From IMG/VR virus record IMGVR_UViG_3300028840_004170, positions 26,074 to 90,073 of that record: a stretch of 64,000 nt of DNA, one strand, 5' to 3'. Positions 1-32,589 of the stretch are shown here, piece after piece. The translations under genes were made by a program, and so were the position numbers. Source of the stretch: a virus. Every line of letters starts with the position of its first letter. The stretch's first letter is position 1. The notes under the pieces are model-generated. The model was not told where the DNA came from. It made no database searches and was given only the letters and a program-made list of their open reading frames with translations.

Positions 1-570
1 TAGCACCACAGTTTCTAGAGAATCATTTTTGATCATCTTCATTAGGTCATCTAGAGAGAATTTGAGATTCAAATTATCACAGACTTTTGACAACACACTT
101 TCTTGAGATAAATATAGATGCCCTGATGATGAGGCTTGAGACAAGATATGTTTGACATATCCAAGAATACGAACCGGAGAATCTTCTTTCAGACCAATTT
201 CATTTAAAGCAATATGGTCAATCTTTTTGAATTGCACCCTACCAAACCCAATCAAAATATATGGGTTCTCGAACAGGTTATTGAGAGAGGGAAGTTTCTG
301 ATGCTTGTCATGAAAAGCATAGAGAGCATTCTTAGCTACTTTGTAGGAGAACCCCCATCCCATGATAAGGAAAATCTCAGGACTAAATGATTCAATGTAA
401 CTCCAATATTGGAGTACACTTCTTGGTCCTCTAAGAGTTTTATGGTTCTGAGTGATAAGTTCGTAAGGACCTCGATACTTACCAAAATTGATTTGATTGA
501 AAGATGATGGAGGTATCTTTACGATCTCCTCCATCCAGGTCTTCAGACCATTTGCTATCTCAAGTTCCAT
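1..570 (-). CDS. RecD2-like DNA helicase, N-terminal part (cut by window edge)
   Basis: An open frame of 190 codons runs off the left edge. It starts at ATG 570, whose A is shared with the TAA of the reductase gene (TAATG), so translation is probably coupled. Residues about 98-150 read like the helix-hairpin-helix region of RecD2 and ExeM helicases: a GFGRVQFKKIDHIAL segment followed by a short-spaced YVKHILSQASSSGHLYLSQE segment, close to the family's usual 'GIGFKTADKIA ... GHTYLPRE' pattern. RecD2 enzymes are 5'-3' SF1B helicases. The Walker motifs would lie beyond the edge and are not visible, so the helicase call rests on this N-terminal domain and on the replication-gene neighbours. Confidence 0.6.
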   Translation of the reverse strand, partial: MELEIANGLKTWMEEIVKIPPSSFNQINFGKYRGPYELITQNHKTLRGPRSVLQYWSYIESFSPEIFLIMGWGFSYKVAKNALYAFHDKHQKLPSLNNLFENPYILIGFGRVQFKKIDHIALNEIGLKEDSPVRILGYVKHILSQASSSGHLYLSQESVLSKVCDNLNLKFSLDDLMKMIKNDSLETVVL

Positions 571-3200
571 TATGAACATCCTAATGAGTTACCACAATTT
601 GGACACCGATAACAAGTTCCGTTTGGAGTAGTGAGGAACCCACAATTAGGACAAGGAGGCCCATCAGAAATGGTACTTGTCTGCAAGGCTGGTAATTCCT
701 CTACTGGCTCATCCTTCAGTTCTGCTTCAACATGAGTATGGTCATCAGAATAGAAGTATGACTTCAACCATCTGAAAATGTAATCAAGAATGGATTTTGC
801 AAACTGTATATCTGAGTTTTTGGTCCAACCTTGAGGCTCAAATCTGGTGTTCTCAAACTTGGTTATAAATGCATCTAAGGGGACTCCATACTGAAGACCA
901 AGACTCACGGCAATCCCAAAATTGTCCATGAGACCATTTATAGTAGACCCTGCCTTTGCCATACGGATAAATAACTCCCCTGGTGATCCATCTTCAAAAA
1001 GACCTACGTGAATATACCCTTTGTGTCCGATTATATCGAATTTGTGTCGAATAGTTTTGATCTCATCTGGCAAGTTTCGTCTAAGGGGCTTCAAGGCAGC
1101 TCTTTTCTTACCTTTTGTCTTGGACATCAAGGGCTGGAAAATTTTGGAACCTTGTCTATAAACAGCTATAGATTTCAGACCCATTTTCCAAGCGTCTAGA
1201 TATATATCCTTGATCTCTTCTATTGTGACGTTTTCAGGCAAGTTGACAGTCTTGCTGATAGCACCACTAAGGAATGGTTGGACGGCTGCCATCATCCTGA
1301 TATGACCCATAGGCTCTATGCATCTATTATTGAGAGGGATAGCACAATCAAATATTGGCAGGTGTTTCTCAAGAAGCCCAGGTGCTCCTTCTATGTATCC
1401 ATTCTCAAGAACGTAGTCTTGGATTTTCTTGATCTCATCATTTTTATAATGGAGAGTCTTCAGAGCTAATGGAATAACAGGATTCACTAATTGCATAGCC
1501 CCACCACCAACAAGAACCTTACTTTTCACCAAAGCAATGTCAGGTTCTACTCCTGTGGTTGCCACATCCATCATGAATCCAATAGTTCCTGTAGGAGCAA
1601 GCAGAGTGACTTGACTGTTACGAATCCCATGCTTGTTACACTTTGACACTACCGAATTCCAAGTATCAAGACTGATCTCTAACAAGTCTTCAATAGGATC
1701 TTCTCCTATGATTTTCTTATGGGCTCTTATGTGCTTGTTCATCACTTTGATGAAAGGTTGTTTGTTGAGTTCCCATTCCTGAAATGGTTCTTTTAGAACG
1801 GCAATATCAGCACTGAAATCATATGCCGTTGAAGTCATGAGACTAGTAATTGCAGCAGCAATGCTTCGAGAAAAATCTGAGTCATAAGGATGACCCAAAG
1901 CCATAAGAGCACCACCAAGATTGGCATACCCCAAACCCAATTGACGATATTTCCTGGCTCCCTCAGTTATTTTTGGTGTGGGATAAGAAGCCCGGTCAAT
2001 TAAAATCTCTTGAGCTAGAATAGTCACCTGTACTGCATGTCGGAAAGCTTCAATGTCAAAAAATTTCTCTTTATCCAAAGAGACAAACTTCATAAGATTC
2101 AATGAAGCAAGATTACAAGCACTATCATTAAGAGACATAAATTCACTACAAGGATTGGAAGCTACAATCTCACCAGAATTGGCTAGTGTATTCCAATCAT
2201 TGATAGTGGTATGGTACTGAACACCAGGGTCACCACAAATATGTGCTGCTTTCGCTATGTCCCCTAGAATCTCAGAAGCTTTGTACTTAGGACCTTTCTT
2301 CCCACTGACTACCTCTTTTGTATACCAATTACCATCATTCTTGACAGCTCGGAAAAACTCATTTGGGATACGTACTGAGTTGTTACCATTCTGGAAGTAA
2401 GTATGATTATAGACGTGTTCAAAATTGGCTTCACCATCTCGGATCAATTCTTGGAGACGTTTTTCTTCAAGAGCTTTGCACCAAATGAATTCCTCAACAT
2501 CTGGATGCCCTACATCCAAAATGATCATCTTGGCAGCACGACGTAATCTCCCACCACTTTTGATGACACCAGCAAAAGCATCAAAACCTTTCATGAAAGA
2601 TACAGGACCAGAAGCTATACCTCCTTTTGATAGAGGCTCCGTTGAAGACCTGAGGACAGAAAAATTGGTCCCTGTCCCACCCCCGTTTTGAAAGATACGA
2701 GCCTCGTTGGAGACAAGTTCCATAATAGAACCCATTGAATCTTCCAAACCTTGAATGAAGCAAGCAGAGATCATAGGCTCTTCATCTAGCCCTATGTTGA
2801 AGAACACTGGGCTATTAAAAGCCATGACTTGATTGTAGATCATATACATAAGTTCATTACAAAATACATCTGCCTCATCTTCATCTAGATATTCACCTTC
2901 AATAGCCCATTTACGAATCGTACCACAAACTCGTTCAGCTAGTTCTTTTAGGCTTTTCTCTTCATTTTTAGCTCTGCTTGTTTTTGCAAAGTATTTCTCA
3001 GAAACTATGTTGATAGCTTGCTGACTCCAAAACTGAGGATAGGAAACCCCTTTCTGTTGGAATATTGCATTGCCATCTTTGTCTTTTACTTCTGCATTTT
3101 TCTTTTCCCATTTTATGCCTGCATCTGGTTTCCCACCTTTACAGAAAAAAGACTCCACTTTCATTTTCGTAGTATCACCAGATACCTCTAAACTTATCAT
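570..3200 (-). CDS. nrdJ: Adenosylcobalamin-dependent (class II) ribonucleoside-diphosphate reductase
   Basis: This enzyme reduces ribonucleotides to deoxyribonucleotides, with a radical generated from coenzyme B12 and no separate radical subunit. In the 876-residue product I see the first active-site cysteine in SACF (C147), the NGGGTGTNFS loop near 172, the thiyl-radical motif NPCSE (C351, E353), ACNLASLNL (C362), a PTGTIGFMMD segment, and a C-terminal zinc-ribbon-like tail with CPNCG, CYRCPNCG and GCS. That tail is typical of NrdJ proteins. I chose ATG 3200 because TTGGAGGAACTAGC lies just before it; an earlier in-frame ATG at 3281 has no ribosome site. The start overlaps the delta-like gene by ATGA. 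No B12-binding riboswitch could be assigned upstream. Confidence 0.95.
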   Translation of the reverse strand: MISLEVSGDTTKMKVESFFCKGGKPDAGIKWEKKNAEVKDKDGNAIFQQKGVSYPQFWSQQAINIVSEKYFAKTSRAKNEEKSLKELAERVCGTIRKWAIEGEYLDEDEADVFCNELMYMIYNQVMAFNSPVFFNIGLDEEPMISACFIQGLEDSMGSIMELVSNEARIFQNGGGTGTNFSVLRSSTEPLSKGGIASGPVSFMKGFDAFAGVIKSGGRLRRAAKMIILDVGHPDVEEFIWCKALEEKRLQELIRDGEANFEHVYNHTYFQNGNNSVRIPNEFFRAVKNDGNWYTKEVVSGKKGPKYKASEILGDIAKAAHICGDPGVQYHTTINDWNTLANSGEIVASNPCSEFMSLNDSACNLASLNLMKFVSLDKEKFFDIEAFRHAVQVTILAQEILIDRASYPTPKITEGARKYRQLGLGYANLGGALMALGHPYDSDFSRSIAAAITSLMTSTAYDFSADIAVLKEPFQEWELNKQPFIKVMNKHIRAHKKIIGEDPIEDLLEISLDTWNSVVSKCNKHGIRNSQVTLLAPTGTIGFMMDVATTGVEPDIALVKSKVLVGGGAMQLVNPVIPLALKTLHYKNDEIKKIQDYVLENGYIEGAPGLLEKHLPIFDCAIPLNNRCIEPMGHIRMMAAVQPFLSGAISKTVNLPENVTIEEIKDIYLDAWKMGLKSIAVYRQGSKIFQPLMSKTKGKKRAALKPLRRNLPDEIKTIRHKFDIIGHKGYIHVGLFEDGSPGELFIRMAKAGSTINGLMDNFGIAVSLGLQYGVPLDAFITKFENTRFEPQGWTKNSDIQFAKSILDYIFRWLKSYFYSDDHTHVEAELKDEPVEELPALQTSTISDGPPCPNCGFLTTPNGTCYRCPNCGNSLGCS

Positions 3201-4078
3201 GCTAGTTCCTCCAATAAAAACGACCGTAATAATATATAGCCATCTAATCCTGTATATTTCATACCTATATCTAATTGGCACAACCTTTTATGCCAACTCA
3301 GTAACTTAGGCAAGGTTATTTTTGAAGATAGCTCTTGTAGTTTTGTTAGGAAATACGGATGGGCATTTAACTGACCTGCAAGTTCTTTGATTTCCCCTCC
3401 ACGAGCCATGAATGATTTTATATATATAACTTTCTCAACAGCTTCCAAAAAGAAAGCCAAGATTTGCAATGGAGGTATTTCTTGATGTTCTAGATTAAGA
3501 AAAGTCTTGAGTGTGGTTTCTCTTTTTCTGAGGAAATCATTAAATAAATCTAGAGTTGTCTTTTTCTTTGGGTTGCCAATCCACTTGAGATCCTTTTGTA
3601 GAATCTTACCAGCAGTTTTGAAATGATTCCCCAACTTGACTAATTCAGAGTGTGTTTGATAGAGATCTCCCCTATCCAGACGTTCTGCTAAATACATATA
3701 TTCATCTTCAGATAACGAGATACCAAATTCCTTCAAGACACCTCTAATGAATACTACAAATCTTTCTTCATTGAGGTCATTGCATTTGAATGTATTTTCT
3801 TGAGGTACTTTTTCTGGTATGTGTTCGAGATACCCCCTGTTAGTCACAGCCCAAACAATGTGATGATTTTCCAACTTTATTTTCTTGAGCACGTCGTAAC
3901 TTATCTTACGGACATCACAAAAAATTATGATCTTCTTGAGAGGACTGCTTTTGATTAGGAAATAGATCTCATTAGGGTCCTCTTTTTGGATAACTGTGTC
4001 AATACCGGTACGATCTTGGATCATCTCCAAGATTTTCATTCTCAAGAATTCGTTTGTACCTATCAGACACCAATGCAT
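3197..4078 (-). CDS. DNA polymerase III delta-like clamp-loader subunit
   Basis: The 293-residue product has the general make-up of the delta subunit (HolA). It has an N-terminal alpha/beta region with a strand pattern KKIIIFCDVR and no Walker motifs. A helical collar-type C-terminal half follows, with the family-like order of a TLDLFNDFLRKRE helix, a PPLQILAFFLEAVEKV helix and a final helical bundle. Delta opens the sliding clamp. The start at 4078 overlaps the TAA of the delta-prime-like gene (TAATG); a longer reading from 4132 would cut into that gene. The adjacent position next to a delta-prime-like gene supports the assignment. The sequence is divergent, so the call depends partly on context. 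Confidence 0.7.
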   Translation of the reverse strand: MHWCLIGTNEFLRMKILEMIQDRTGIDTVIQKEDPNEIYFLIKSSPLKKIIIFCDVRKISYDVLKKIKLENHHIVWAVTNRGYLEHIPEKVPQENTFKCNDLNEERFVVFIRGVLKEFGISLSEDEYMYLAERLDRGDLYQTHSELVKLGNHFKTAGKILQKDLKWIGNPKKKTTLDLFNDFLRKRETTLKTFLNLEHQEIPPLQILAFFLEAVEKVIYIKSFMARGGEIKELAGQLNAHPYFLTKLQELSSKITLPKLLSWHKRLCQLDIGMKYTGLDGYILLRSFLLEELA

Positions 4079-4932
4079 TATTTTCTCAGCTCTATCTTTG
4101 CATCTACCACAGCTTGAAAGAAATGATGCCAAGCTCTAACACTAGGGTATCTCTTCATAGTCTGGTAGAATTGATTTAAATGGTTATAGATAACGAGTAG
4201 GTCTTGACTACCTCTTTTCTCTTCTATCAATGAAAGTCTTTCTTGGACATATGGAGAGGATTCTGTGAAATGAAGATGCAGTACAAACAACACCCAATGG
4301 ATTAAATCTCCAAGATCTGTCTCTCGTACTTTAAGAAGATTCAGTAACGTCTCTTTTTCAAAAAAACTCTCTATGAACAATATAGCTCTTTCCTGTTCCA
4401 CACGACTTTTGTTAAGTTGGAACAGTGGTATTCCACCATACTCTGCTTCTGATGTTGGTGGTATATAAATTTCCCAGCATCGAGATCGAAGAGTGGGGAT
4501 AACTTCTGTGTGGTAAGGAGTGAGGAAAAGAAACAGATTGTAAGGCTTTACATCCTCTACTATTTTCAAAAAAACATCGCTTCCCTCAGGGGTGATTTTA
4601 TCAGCTTGGTCTATGACAATAGCTCTGACTTTAGAGGCTAGTGGTGGCTTACTGACAGCAGCAGAAATCTCTCGAATATCATTTACACCCCAAGACTTCT
4701 TTTCTAATTCATAGAGAATGTAATCTTCTCTAGGTATTGATATGCAAGAAGCACATTCACATTTTGAACTTTGATTACCTTCACAATTGGCATATTTGAA
4801 TATGAGCCTGGAGAAAAGTTGCTTCCCCATGCCTTCTTCACCAGTGAGAATAAGAGGATGAAAGGTGCCTTCTCTGACATAACTTGTCAGAAATGCTCGG
4901 ACACCATCTCTTTCCCAAATCTCACCAAACAT
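4078..4932 (-). CDS. Clamp-loader AAA+ subunit, DNA polymerase III delta-prime-like (HolB/DnaX family)
   Basis: The 284-residue product shows a degenerate P-loop GEEGMGKQ (residues 31-38, Q where S/T is usual). It also has a zinc module with C50, C58, C60 and C63, a Walker-B-like strand AIVIDQAD (105-111, DQAD in place of DEAD) and a TLRSRC motif (147-152) like the conserved SRC of clamp loaders. The altered P-loop suggests a structural, non-hydrolysing role like bacterial delta-prime, which organises delta and the gamma/tau ATPases. The start is ATG 4932, with GAGGAGGT four bases upstream. It is coupled to the delta-like gene downstream. No phage gamma/tau gene is in this window, so a host or distant subunit may supply ATPase activity. 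Confidence 0.8.
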   Translation of the reverse strand: MFGEIWERDGVRAFLTSYVREGTFHPLILTGEEGMGKQLFSRLIFKYANCEGNQSSKCECASCISIPREDYILYELEKKSWGVNDIREISAAVSKPPLASKVRAIVIDQADKITPEGSDVFLKIVEDVKPYNLFLFLTPYHTEVIPTLRSRCWEIYIPPTSEAEYGGIPLFQLNKSRVEQERAILFIESFFEKETLLNLLKVRETDLGDLIHWVLFVLHLHFTESSPYVQERLSLIEEKRGSQDLLVIYNHLNQFYQTMKRYPSVRAWHHFFQAVVDAKIELRK

Positions 4933-4975: not shown

Positions 4976-5560
4976 TTAAATTATTTCTAAACGCTCAGCT
5001 AAATTCTTTGTCTTTGGAGCAAAATAGTTGAAGAATCGTTTCTTTTCGGCAGGATTCCTCAAGACATAGGAAGGATGATACATAATGAAGACATGAAATC
5101 TCCCAGCTCTATAAATTTTGCCAGCTATATGTGTAATTTTTTGTTTCTCTTTAAATTGCATCAAAGTCTGGACTACATCTGATCCCATAAGGATCAGAAT
5201 CTTTGCCTTGTCAAAAAATTCCAGTTCTTTTCGGAGATGTACTTTACAGGACTCAATCTCTGTCTGAGTAGGAGGTCGATTTCCAGGAGTGAAACATTTT
5301 ACCATATTCACTATCCCAACTTGGTTTCTTTTGTAACCAACCTTCCCCATCCACTCATTCAGAAGCTGCCCAGAACGTCCCACAAAGGGCCTGGTGAAAC
5401 GATCTTCATCGTTACCAGGGTTACGACCCACAAAAATGATTTTGGCATCCTGAGGGCCTTCTCCTCGAACAGGACTAACCACGTCTTGATAAAGTGGACA
5501 GAGCTGACAAGAAGCTATCTCTGTGGCAATAGAACTATCTTGGATCAGAGGTGTGTCCAT
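4976..5560 (-). CDS. Family 4 uracil-DNA glycosylase (4Fe-4S type)
   Basis: This enzyme removes uracil from DNA in base-excision repair. The 194-residue product carries the four cluster cysteines C18, C21, C89 and C105. Their spacing is nearly that of Thermus family 4 UDG (C14, C17, C86, C102). It also has the motif run VGRNPG ... RPFVGRSGQLL (44-67), the segment NMVKCFTPGNRPP (85-97), and the terminal catalytic-type motif HPSYVLRNP. The usual GEAPG of motif A is GRNPG here. I prefer ATG 5560 because GGGAG sits five bases upstream; ATG 5572 is also in frame but directly abuts its only candidate site. The gene overlaps the end of the upstream small gene by 16 bases. Confidence 0.9.
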   Translation of the reverse strand: MDTPLIQDSSIATEIASCQLCPLYQDVVSPVRGEGPQDAKIIFVGRNPGNDEDRFTRPFVGRSGQLLNEWMGKVGYKRNQVGIVNMVKCFTPGNRPPTQTEIESCKVHLRKELEFFDKAKILILMGSDVVQTLMQFKEKQKITHIAGKIYRAGRFHVFIMYHPSYVLRNPAEKKRFFNYFAPKTKNLAERLEII

Positions 5561-5817
5561 GCACACTCCCATCCTTTAGGTTTCAGAGTAGCTCTCTGCA
5601 CGAATCCTTTTTGACTGATTTCATTTGAAATCTTCTCAACATAGAATGGACCTTTAACTTCTGCTATTCGATGTCTAGGTGGGGAACCATCATCTGGCTG
5701 ATATTGTGATTTGAAAGAAAACCCATCTTCAAAATGAATCAACCATTTGGGTCTAAGAGAATCTGTCTTTGTTTCTACTTCTAAATTCAGGTCAGGTATC
5801 ACATAAATTGTCTTCAA
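5545..5817 (-). CDS. Hypothetical protein, 90 residues, TTG start
   Basis: I do not recognise this family. The product is mixed alpha/beta, without membrane segments or cysteine pairs. It has a central charged and proline-containing stretch (PDDGSPPRHR) and a Trp-rich end. The start is TTG at 5817, supported by AAAGGGAG nine bases upstream; no in-frame ATG fits. It overlaps the glycosylase gene downstream, so both are likely translated from one message. A DNA-repair accessory role is possible from position only. Confidence 0.6.
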   Translation of the reverse strand: MKTIYVIPDLNLEVETKTDSLRPKWLIHFEDGFSFKSQYQPDDGSPPRHRIAEVKGPFYVEKISNEISQKGFVQRATLKPKGWECAWTHL

Positions 5818-5835
5818 GATACATCTCTCCCTTTA

Positions 5836-5945
5836 GGAACGGGAGGAATTCTTGAAGAATTTGAGAGATCTCGTTCCCCTCAACCCCTTCCTAAATGTCA
5901 TGCTAGCTGAAGTTATCCAGCTAGACGAACACTCATAAGTGTTCG
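5836..5945 (-). promoter_or_regulatory. Hairpin-rich leader upstream of the glycosylase/clamp-loader/reductase operon
   Basis: Three inverted repeats stand in a row. The first joins GGAACG (5836-5841) to CGTTCC (5872-5877) and encloses AATTCTT/AAGAATT (5847-5861). The second is CTAGCTG/CAGCTAG (5903-5924). The third is CGAACACT/AGTGTTCG with a CATA loop (5926-5945). Read on the minus strand they form a structured leader just before the ribosome site of the TTG-start gene. On the plus strand the last hairpin is followed by a T-run near 5954-5964, so it could also act as a terminator, though no plus-strand gene precedes it. Function is inferred from structure only. Confidence 0.4.
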
Positions 5946-5961
5946 GGTTTCATATTGTTTT

Positions 5962-6354
5962 TTATACCATCGTCGTTATATATGCTCTCTTTTCTGTTCC
6001 TTCCAGTGGTGTTTTTGTTTTCAAGGCTTCTGTTGTTGTTGGCTGCCCAAATTTCTGCTCGGATGTGCCTCTCATGAACTTATAAGAGGGAAGAGACATA
6101 CTTGGCCCGACTCCAACCAGCGAAATGCTGGGGCTAGTAAGGGCTGAGAGCCCACCGGTAGGCCGGTGGCAGCAAACAGCAGGGCATCTCCCAGACCATC
6201 GGGACGTAAATCTAACCTTCCCTGGTACTAGTAGGCCAGTAGTCAGGGCATTTTTACGTTGATGGCAGATAAACTGGAAGTTTGGACATGAAACTCTTGA
6301 CTTGCTAGAAGACTGTTTACCCTCAGCGGTAAGATTCAAACGACCTTTTTTCAC
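5962..6354 (-). CDS. Possible 130-residue protein (GTG start) in a structured, GC-richer segment
   Basis: An open frame starts at GTG 6354. It has AGGAGGGG nine bases upstream and a sigma70-like promoter about 40 bases upstream, so translation is plausible. The product is unlike its neighbours: rich in S, T, G, P and R, with scattered cysteines (CPNFQFICH near 29, CPAVCCH near 60), and with many ACA codons toward the end. I recognise no family. The DNA of the middle part is GC-rich and folds into several perfect hairpins, which is more typical of a functional RNA than of a gene. The frame may therefore be incidental to an RNA, or the segment may do both jobs. Confidence 0.35.
   Translation of the reverse strand: MKKGRLNLTAEGKQSSSKSRVSCPNFQFICHQRKNALTTGLLVPGKVRFTSRWSGRCPAVCCHRPTGGLSALTSPSISLVGVGPSMSLPSYKFMRGTSEQKFGQPTTTEALKTKTPLEGTEKRAYITTMV
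6084..6345 (-). ncRNA. Candidate structured RNA, class unknown
   Basis: A cluster of short perfect stems lies in a locally GC-rich patch: CCAGC/GCTGG (6117-6131), GGGCT/AGCCC (6141-6153), CCACCGG/CCGGTGG (6152-6169), CCCTG/CAGGG (6220-6248) and TTACC/GGTAA (6317-6332). The element GGCCTAC occurs twice on the minus strand, each time in a loop context. A strong promoter directly upstream on the minus strand would transcribe it. I could not match it to tRNA, tmRNA, RNase P, group I or II introns or a known riboswitch by eye. Large ornate phage RNAs such as GOLLD or ROOL are possible relatives by location and style only. Strand choice follows the promoter. Confidence 0.35.
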
Positions 6355-6390
6355 TTTTTGAATCCCCTCCTAATCAAGCCAATTAAGGGC

Positions 6391-6418
6391 ATTATACGGA
6401 TTCAAACTCCTTTGTCTA
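6391..6418 (-). promoter_or_regulatory. Sigma70-like promoter for the minus-strand operon
   Basis: On the minus strand, TAGACA (6418-6413) is followed after 16 bases by a perfect TATAAT (6396-6391). The predicted transcript would start near 6384, about a dozen bases before an AGGAGG ribosome site and the GTG at 6354. This is the clearest host-type promoter I found in the window. It points into the glycosylase/clamp-loader/reductase operon, which fits early or middle expression by the host polymerase. Confidence 0.6.
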
Positions 6419-6847
6419 CAAAAAAGATCTCATACAATTCCAGTAACTTACAACACTGGGTCTCATAACTCCCTGAACATACAACTAAAAAATTTCCCGC
6501 TTCCTACCCATTTTTTTTCATTTCTTCTCCTCACCATATGTTGCCATACAGATCTTTTCGTGTACTCCCCCTTCTTCATTTATATATACTCTCTTTTCTT
6601 TTCCTCTTGTAGGTAGAAGTTAAGATCAGATCTATTTATATATATTATTATGGAGATCCAAAAATTGGAGGTAAGGAAAGTTACCTGTGTTGCAGGTAGG
6701 GAGATTTTGGGATCTGAAAAGTTACCATACATGTATTGTAAGTGTAGAGATGAGATCCAAAAAATTGAGACCTGGATTTGTGGGTGGGGGGATGTTGATT
6801 GATCTGTTTGTATTGTTAGTGTATATATGAGTGAAGAGGAGGATGAT
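6419..6847. other. Divergent noncoding region between replication and structural arms
   Basis: About 430 bases separate the minus-strand promoter from the first convincing plus-strand gene. The stretch is AT-rich, with several TATATAT runs (near 6585, 6637 and 6822) and poly-T/poly-C pyrimidine tracts between 6500 and 6605. It probably carries the promoter of the plus-strand genes, but I see no convincing -35/-10 pair. A short frame at 6650-6802 (50 codons) lacks a ribosome site and is not called. Confidence 0.5.
6653..6769 (+). repeat. Pair of direct repeats, GAGATCCAAAAA type
   Basis: GAGATCCAAAAATTGGAG at 6653-6670 recurs as GAGATCCAAAAAATTGAG at 6752-6769. AAAGTTACC also occurs twice between them. 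The copies sit upstream of the structural arm and could be protein-binding sites or the trace of a small duplication. Confidence 0.45.
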
Positions 6848-31406: not shown

Positions 31407-31596
31407 TCTTTTTATATATATCTGAATGTGATGGGCTTTCAGGGATGATGTTGCTCAAACTCTAGAATCTATAAGATTCTATGTTTATTATGTGGCAAAT
31501 ATTTACTAGACGGAGCCGATCATAAGATGTTATATATAGACCTTGGGAGAAGGTCGCAATTTATGTTATGTAGCTAACGTCAAAGGAGAACACGAG
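31407..31596 (+). promoter_or_regulatory. Leader region of the actin-like gene with two hairpins
   Basis: This 190-base gap is among the longest in the structural arm. It holds TAGAATCT/AGATTCTA (31463-31481) and GACCTT/AAGGTC, the latter near 31538-31554, plus several ATGTT and TATATA elements. I see no clear tandem iterons, so a centromere-like site is unproven. It likely carries a promoter or 5' control region for the actin-like gene. Confidence 0.4.
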
Positions 31597-32589
31597 ATGA
31601 GTAACTCAGGAGTTGGTCTAGATATAGGGACCATGAACATCATTTCTGCTCGTAAGAATGACGAGGATGAACTAGTAGTCAAGAGGCTTAGAGATGCTTT
31701 TTTGGATCTTGAGCCTGATGCTAAGAAGATGCTCAAGCTTTCTGGAGTGAGTTATATAGAATACAAGGATAAGATTGTTATTGTTGGGGATACAGCTTTA
31801 CATACTGCAAATATCTTCAAAAGAGATGCTCGTAGACCTCTATCAAAGGGTATCATTTCACCAGAAGAGGTTGATGCTGTTGAAATTTTGTCCATCATCA
31901 TTAAGCAGGTGCTTGGTAAACCATCTGTTAAGAATGAGATTTGTTACTTCTCTGTGCCAGCCGAACCAATTGATGATGTTTCAAAAGATGTAATCTACCA
32001 TACCGATGTATTCAAGAGAATTCTTAAAGAACTAGGGTATGAGCCTCAAGAATCAAATGAAGCCCTTTCAGTGATTTTGTCTGAATGTGCTCAGGAGAAT
32101 TTTTCGGGTATTGCCTTGAGTTTTGGTAGTGGTATGGTCAATGTTGCTATGGCCTATCATAGCATGCTTTCGTTGGCATTTTCTATGTCTCGTGCTGGAG
32201 ATTGGATTGATACTCAGGCAGGGAAAGCTCTAGGTCAAACTTCTTCTAGGATGTGTACCATCAAGGAAAAAGGTATTGATCTGAAAAACCCTAAAGATCG
32301 TAATGAAGAGGCAATAACCATTTATTATAAATCCTTGATTGAGGATGCTGTTAAGTATCTGGTGAAGAAGGTTGGTGAAATGGGAGAGTTGGATTTCCCA
32401 GAACCAATCCCTATTGTGTTGGCAGGTGGTACCTCGAAGATAGGCGGTTTTTTGGACGTGTTCAAAGAGATATTTGAACCCTATAAGGTCAAAATGAAAG
32501 TGGAAATCAGTGAAGTCCGAATGGCTGTGAATGTATTAACAAGTGTTTCAGAAGGGCTTCTATTACAAGCTCTTCAAGAATATGAATAA
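31597..32589 (+). CDS. Actin-like ATPase (MreB/ParM/FtsA superfamily)
   Basis: The 330-residue product has the actin-fold landmarks in order. They are phosphate-1 VGLDIGTMN (6-14), a connect-type segment CYFSVPAEPID (116-126), a phosphate-2-like IALSFGSGMVNVAM (172-185), GDWIDTQAGKALG (201-213), and an adenosine motif IVLAGGTSKIGGF (273-285). The usual Asp of phosphate-2 is Ser (S175), so hydrolysis may differ. Family members polymerise into filaments that move DNA or organise the cell. AAAGGAGA lies seven bases before ATG 31597; an upstream in-frame start at 31543 lacks support. A small HeH/SAP-type gene follows at 12 bases. Confidence 0.8.
   Translation: MSNSGVGLDIGTMNIISARKNDEDELVVKRLRDAFLDLEPDAKKMLKLSGVSYIEYKDKIVIVGDTALHTANIFKRDARRPLSKGIISPEEVDAVEILSIIIKQVLGKPSVKNEICYFSVPAEPIDDVSKDVIYHTDVFKRILKELGYEPQESNEALSVILSECAQENFSGIALSFGSGMVNVAMAYHSMLSLAFSMSRAGDWIDTQAGKALGQTSSRMCTIKEKGIDLKNPKDRNEEAITIYYKSLIEDAVKYLVKKVGEMGELDFPEPIPIVLAGGTSKIGGFLDVFKEIFEPYKVKMKVEISEVRMAVNVLTSVSEGLLLQALQEYE

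Follow-up and report, generated by a model that had tools for sequence, protein, structure and literature searches.

Gene organization at the locus

The window analyzed here, a stretch of 64,000 nucleotides, belongs to a 90-kb virus record, and the locus recurs with 100% identity in two larger contigs, of 186 and 358 kb. The major capsid protein is 79% identical to that of a 485-kb uncultured phage and 38% identical to that of Bacillus phage G, and the capsid gene places this phage near the huge phages. Our focus is positions 5962 to 6418 of the window (the segment), which the initial annotation described as a structured, GC-richer transcript or an orphan gene behind a strong minus-strand promoter, together with the flanking genes and features (Table 1). 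To the left of the segment all genes lie on the minus strand: a gene for a 90-amino-acid (aa) protein, a uracil-DNA glycosylase (UDG) gene, the genes for clamp-loader delta' and delta subunits, and a large gene (570..3281) whose product, judged by its sequence, we take to be probably a ribonucleotide reductase. To the right of an AT-rich divergent gap the genes lie on the plus strand, the major capsid gene among them. The 90-aa gene heads the UDG/clamp-loader operon, and a hairpin-rich leader abuts its ribosome site.

Table 1. Positions of the features in and around the segment (window coordinates)
Feature	Position	Strand	Remarks
Clamp-loader delta-like subunit	3197..4132	-	PF21694
Clamp-loader delta'-like subunit	4078..4932	-	PF13177
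Uracil-DNA glycosylase (UDG)	4976..5572	-	PF03167
90-aa gene, TTG start, unknown family	5545..5817	-	First gene with good support in the leftward operon
Hairpin-rich leader	5818..5945	-	Stems 5926-5945 and 5903-5924; long-range pair 5832-5843/5884-5895
GTG frame, 130 codons, orphan	5962..6354	-	Open frame with ribosome site; coding status ambiguous
26-nt direct repeat, copy A	5976..6001		TTATATATGCTCTCTTTTCTGTTCCT
GC-richer core, two or three predicted hairpins	6060..6282	-	Modest extra stability, z = -2.4
Shine-Dalgarno-like AGGAGG	6366..6371	-	11 nt 5' of the GTG
Sigma-70-like promoter, TAGACA-16-TATAAT	6391..6418	-	11/12 consensus bases matched
AT-rich divergent gap with repeats	6420..6826		Holds the cumulative GC-skew minimum of the 358-kb contig
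26-nt direct repeat, copy B	6580..6605		92% identical to copy A

Elsewhere in the window, an actin-like protein (31543-32589) matches the Pfam family Volactin (PF25216, E = 1e-69). Neither tRNA nor tmRNA genes were found in the 64 kb. The phage encodes a tmRNA (L107:4254-4611) and a large tRNA island (L104-L107); the search of 140 kb gave 51 tRNA matches, mostly at ~92-150 kb of the 358-kb contig and far from the segment; three tRNA matches lie near 327-331 kb (L116), and a DUF3800-VI RNA match lies at L107:7269-7317. Many near-repeats at L104:15451-16297 (contig bin 95.5 kb) coincide with a tandem run of tRNA genes, and the contig has further repeat-rich bins at 329 and 334.5 kb.

Promoter and base composition

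The proposed TAGACA-16-TATAAT promoter is indeed present on the minus strand. In a motif scan, only two sigma-70-like sites in the 64-kb window match at 11 of 12 positions, the other one lying within a gene and on its opposite strand, and TAGACA..TATAAT has just two sites across the 358-kb contig. Weaker promoter-like sites show no regional excess over chance (2 counted versus 6.3 expected), and the 11/12 match is therefore suggestive but short of proof. The start region of the GTG frame lies 30 nt downstream of this promoter. Because no terminator-like site was found on the minus strand between this promoter and the UDG/clamp-loader operon, the promoter probably drives those genes. A separate promoter near repeat copy A (~5990) could be the driver of the operon instead, in which case the upstream segment would be a unit of its own.

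The base composition of the segment differs from that of its surroundings, as the initial annotation had it, with a GC content of ~0.50 over positions 6000-6299 versus 0.35 to 0.38 in the flanks. The motif GGCCTAC, which had been singled out for occurring twice, has two copies 73 bp apart in the segment, out of 15 in the 358 kb.

RNA folding and homology searches

The five perfect stems ascribed to the segment came down to one perfect stem (6152-6169) when the minimum was set at 6 bp and the loop at 3 to 12, a chance-level count given the 0.85 expected in shuffled sequences. As background for the folding energies, 40 transcribed segments drawn at random from this phage had a mean z score of -1.10 (sd, 1.09), and the two segments with z of -2.9 or lower both came from the tRNA region. 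Folding energies of 5940-6430 (z = -0.93; 15 of 100 shuffles equal or better) and 5946-6384 (z = -1.82) do not fall clearly below this matched background, as those of a structured noncoding RNA would. A sub-hairpin at 6190-6282 (z = -2.5) and the 223-nt core (z = -2.4) are weakly above chance, both being sub-windows picked post hoc. An energy clearly below the background was found for the hairpin leader alone (5818-5950; z = -3.48, with none of 200 shuffles as good), which lies outside the interval originally claimed. On the minus strand, the whole 567-nt leader that includes these hairpins has z scores of -2.9 to -3.7, compared with the background mean of -1.1, whereas its plus strand scores only -0.7.

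A search of Rfam, including GOLLD, ROOL, and OLE, returned no match at the gathering score, and at E values up to 10 it returned two chance-level matches, neither of them to GOLLD, ROOL, or OLE. A single-sequence covariance model (R1) searched against 55 loci and 23 records matched only the phage itself, and a distant DNA search of phages and plasmids recovered chance pieces only. Every copy of the segment that we found is identical and comes from two contigs of the same phage; no RNA or protein homologue was found outside these contigs. When synteny was compared with 80 capsid relatives, the closest one (L006, with a 93% identical capsid) stopped short of the segment, and no UDG match was found in the 32 relatives searched.

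Coding potential of the GTG frame

The 130-codon GTG frame (6354..5962) and its upstream ribosome site were both located as reported. The frame is open beyond chance in dinucleotide shuffles (P of ~0.001 on the same strand and 0.0065 on either strand). Motifs resembling a Shine-Dalgarno site lie upstream of 38% of long genes versus 2.7% of random NTG triplets in gaps, and the AGGAGG site before this GTG has a likelihood ratio of ~14. Positions 5962..6354 thus show two traits of a protein-coding gene, an open frame beyond chance and a ribosome site; the triplet periodicity and codon usage typical of this genome are missing from the frame. Specifically, the base-by-codon-position chi2 is 9.6, which is not significant and is below that of 98.9% of gene fragments, GC content peaks at codon position 2, and the codon score falls in the bottom 5% of genes, in agreement with the atypical codons noted earlier. 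Given this lack of periodicity and these atypical codons, the frame may be untranslated. A neighboring gene, o7168, has periodicity as poor as that of the GTG frame, yet two related phages carry weak homologues of it, and poor periodicity therefore does not exclude a gene.

Searches of Pfam, PHROGs, phages, and viral and genome contigs with the GTG-frame protein retrieved nothing besides the same phage. An AlphaFold2 model had a pLDDT of 35, a value that is uninformative as it was obtained from a single sequence with no alignment. The last codons of the frame overlap the duplicated 26-nt DNA element. Taken together, translation of the frame has about an even chance. The orphan gene behind a strong promoter of the original description stays a possibility, backed by the promoter, the ribosome site, and the openness of the frame.

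A probable replication origin in the divergent gap

The cumulative GC skew of the 358-kb contig reaches its global minimum at window position 6562. Because GC skew also tracks gene strand, we fitted the skew at fourfold-degenerate sites, entering gene strand as a covariate. After this correction, the arm effect at fourfold sites was 0.26, a value reached in none of 2,000 permutations; the permutation takes genes as independent although neighboring genes are not, and the support is accordingly strong rather than exact. The best skew breakpoints lie at 204-222 kb of the contig, and the gap sits at 208.4 kb. GC skew thus changes sign beyond what gene orientation accounts for, as at an origin recognized by skew, and the gap is probably an origin of bidirectional replication. 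The 358-kb contig is incomplete, with a sister contig running 4,089 bp past its end and no circularity shown, so that the geometry of the replichores is uncertain.

The 26-nt element has exactly two copies in 358 kb, the next best sites having 7 or more mismatches, as expected by chance. This repeat may represent a promoter present in duplicate or a site at the origin to which a protein binds. GATC sites are clustered at the gap (8 in 420 bp), a high density though not a unique one in the genome. DnaA boxes do not cluster at the gap, and the density of iteron-like repeats there is no greater than in many other bins. At the skew minima of two larger relatives, no comparable divergent site by the capsid module was found.

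Interpretation of the locus

We consider it fairly probable that the leftward DNA replication operon of a jumbo phage begins with the segment, at a probable origin, and that this operon head consists of a promoter, then either a small orphan gene or an untranslated leader, and finally a hairpin leader. This reading builds on what was observed at the locus, namely, its sequence elements, gene order, skew switch, and folding statistics, and it draws in particular on the excess structure in the leader, the open frame with its Shine-Dalgarno-like site, and the skew minimum at 6562. The 11/12 promoter is correctly placed and oriented, and the operon genes are predicted to act in replication and nucleotide metabolism. 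RNA polymerase would start at ~6384 from the consensus promoter, and the transcript would cross 5962-6354, either encoding a short basic orphan protein or serving as an untranslated leader. It would then read through into the hairpin-rich leader (5945-5818), which probably tunes downstream expression or stability, and on into the genes for the 90-aa protein, UDG, clamp-loader delta' and delta, and probably ribonucleotide reductase. The AT-rich gap just upstream would act as the probable bidirectional origin.

About as likely as not is a narrower reading that overlaps the operon-head interpretation, in which the 130-codon frame is a true orphan gene for a protein, either young or of foreign origin, and RNA structure is incidental. 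The openness of the frame on the same or either strand, the likelihood ratio of its AGGAGG site, the promoter 30 nt ahead of where it starts, and the precedent of o7168 argue for such a gene; the absent periodicity, the low codon score with its GC peak at position 2, the low single-sequence pLDDT, the protein searches without a homologue, and the final codons shared with the 26-nt DNA element argue against it. It is unlikely that the segment is instead a stand-alone structured noncoding RNA of ~400 nt (6384..5950, minus strand), whether it would act like the large ornate RNAs of phages or would regulate the origin. The GC-richer core, the moderate fold excess (z = -2.4 to -2.5) of the sub-windows picked post hoc, the strong promoter, and the poor coding periodicity of the GTG frame would fit such an RNA, but the whole-segment z scores (-0.9 to -1.8) are those of the phage background (-1.1 ± 1.1), Rfam gave no match, the covariance model built from a single sequence retrieved the same phage only, no terminator was found, and the open frame would be left unexplained. 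The new large structured phage RNA of the initial annotation fails on the grounds of background-level folding and missing Rfam match, homologue, and terminator. We likewise regard as rather improbable a new structured RNA, perhaps peptide encoding, that is made at a jumbo-phage origin and controls origin firing or the replication operon, and the RNA claim is not worth pursuing without related sequences.

A decayed insertion, also raised originally, or a foreign fragment might explain the contrast in GC content and the 26-nt direct repeat flanking the segment with copies 604 bp apart. However, the search of phages, plasmids, and viral and genome contigs matched no insertion or gene, the ends of the segment lack terminal inverted repeats, and the repeat does not closely bound the GC-rich part, and we judge this origin of the segment highly improbable. 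The skew switch and the diverging transcription at the gap could also point to an R-loop origin like T4 oriF, with the minus-strand transcript priming leading-strand synthesis, and T4 oriE, oriF, and oriG are likewise located where transcription and base composition change strand (PMC3016281). In T4 oriF and oriG, the AT-rich unwinding element lies downstream of the promoter (PMC3016281), whereas at this locus GC-richer DNA follows the promoter and the AT-rich part precedes it, and R-loop priming seems doubtful at best.

The locus is ordinary in kind, and the assignment of a probable origin is the most useful result. A probable origin defined by skew, a consensus promoter, and a hairpin leader ahead of clamp-loader/UDG genes lie together in a compact region suited to testing how jumbo-phage replication starts.

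Comparison with known systems

Like the GOLLD, ROOL, and OLE large RNAs (PMC12286853), the segment is located in a phage and spans a few hundred nucleotides; it differs from them in having no covariance-model match, no extensive supported structure, and no tRNA island beside it. With T4 oriE, oriF, and oriG (PMC3016281) the locus shares the strand switch of transcription and nucleotide bias and a promoter with a sigma-70-like -10 element. It departs from them in the position of the AT-rich element, which is upstream of the promoter. No counterpart of the local promoter, frame, or leader was found in the relatives examined. At the level of the whole genome, bidirectional-type skew occurs in ~30% of huge phages (PMC7162821), and the same skew pattern is seen here in a phage whose capsid protein is 79% identical to that of the 485-kb uncultured phage record.
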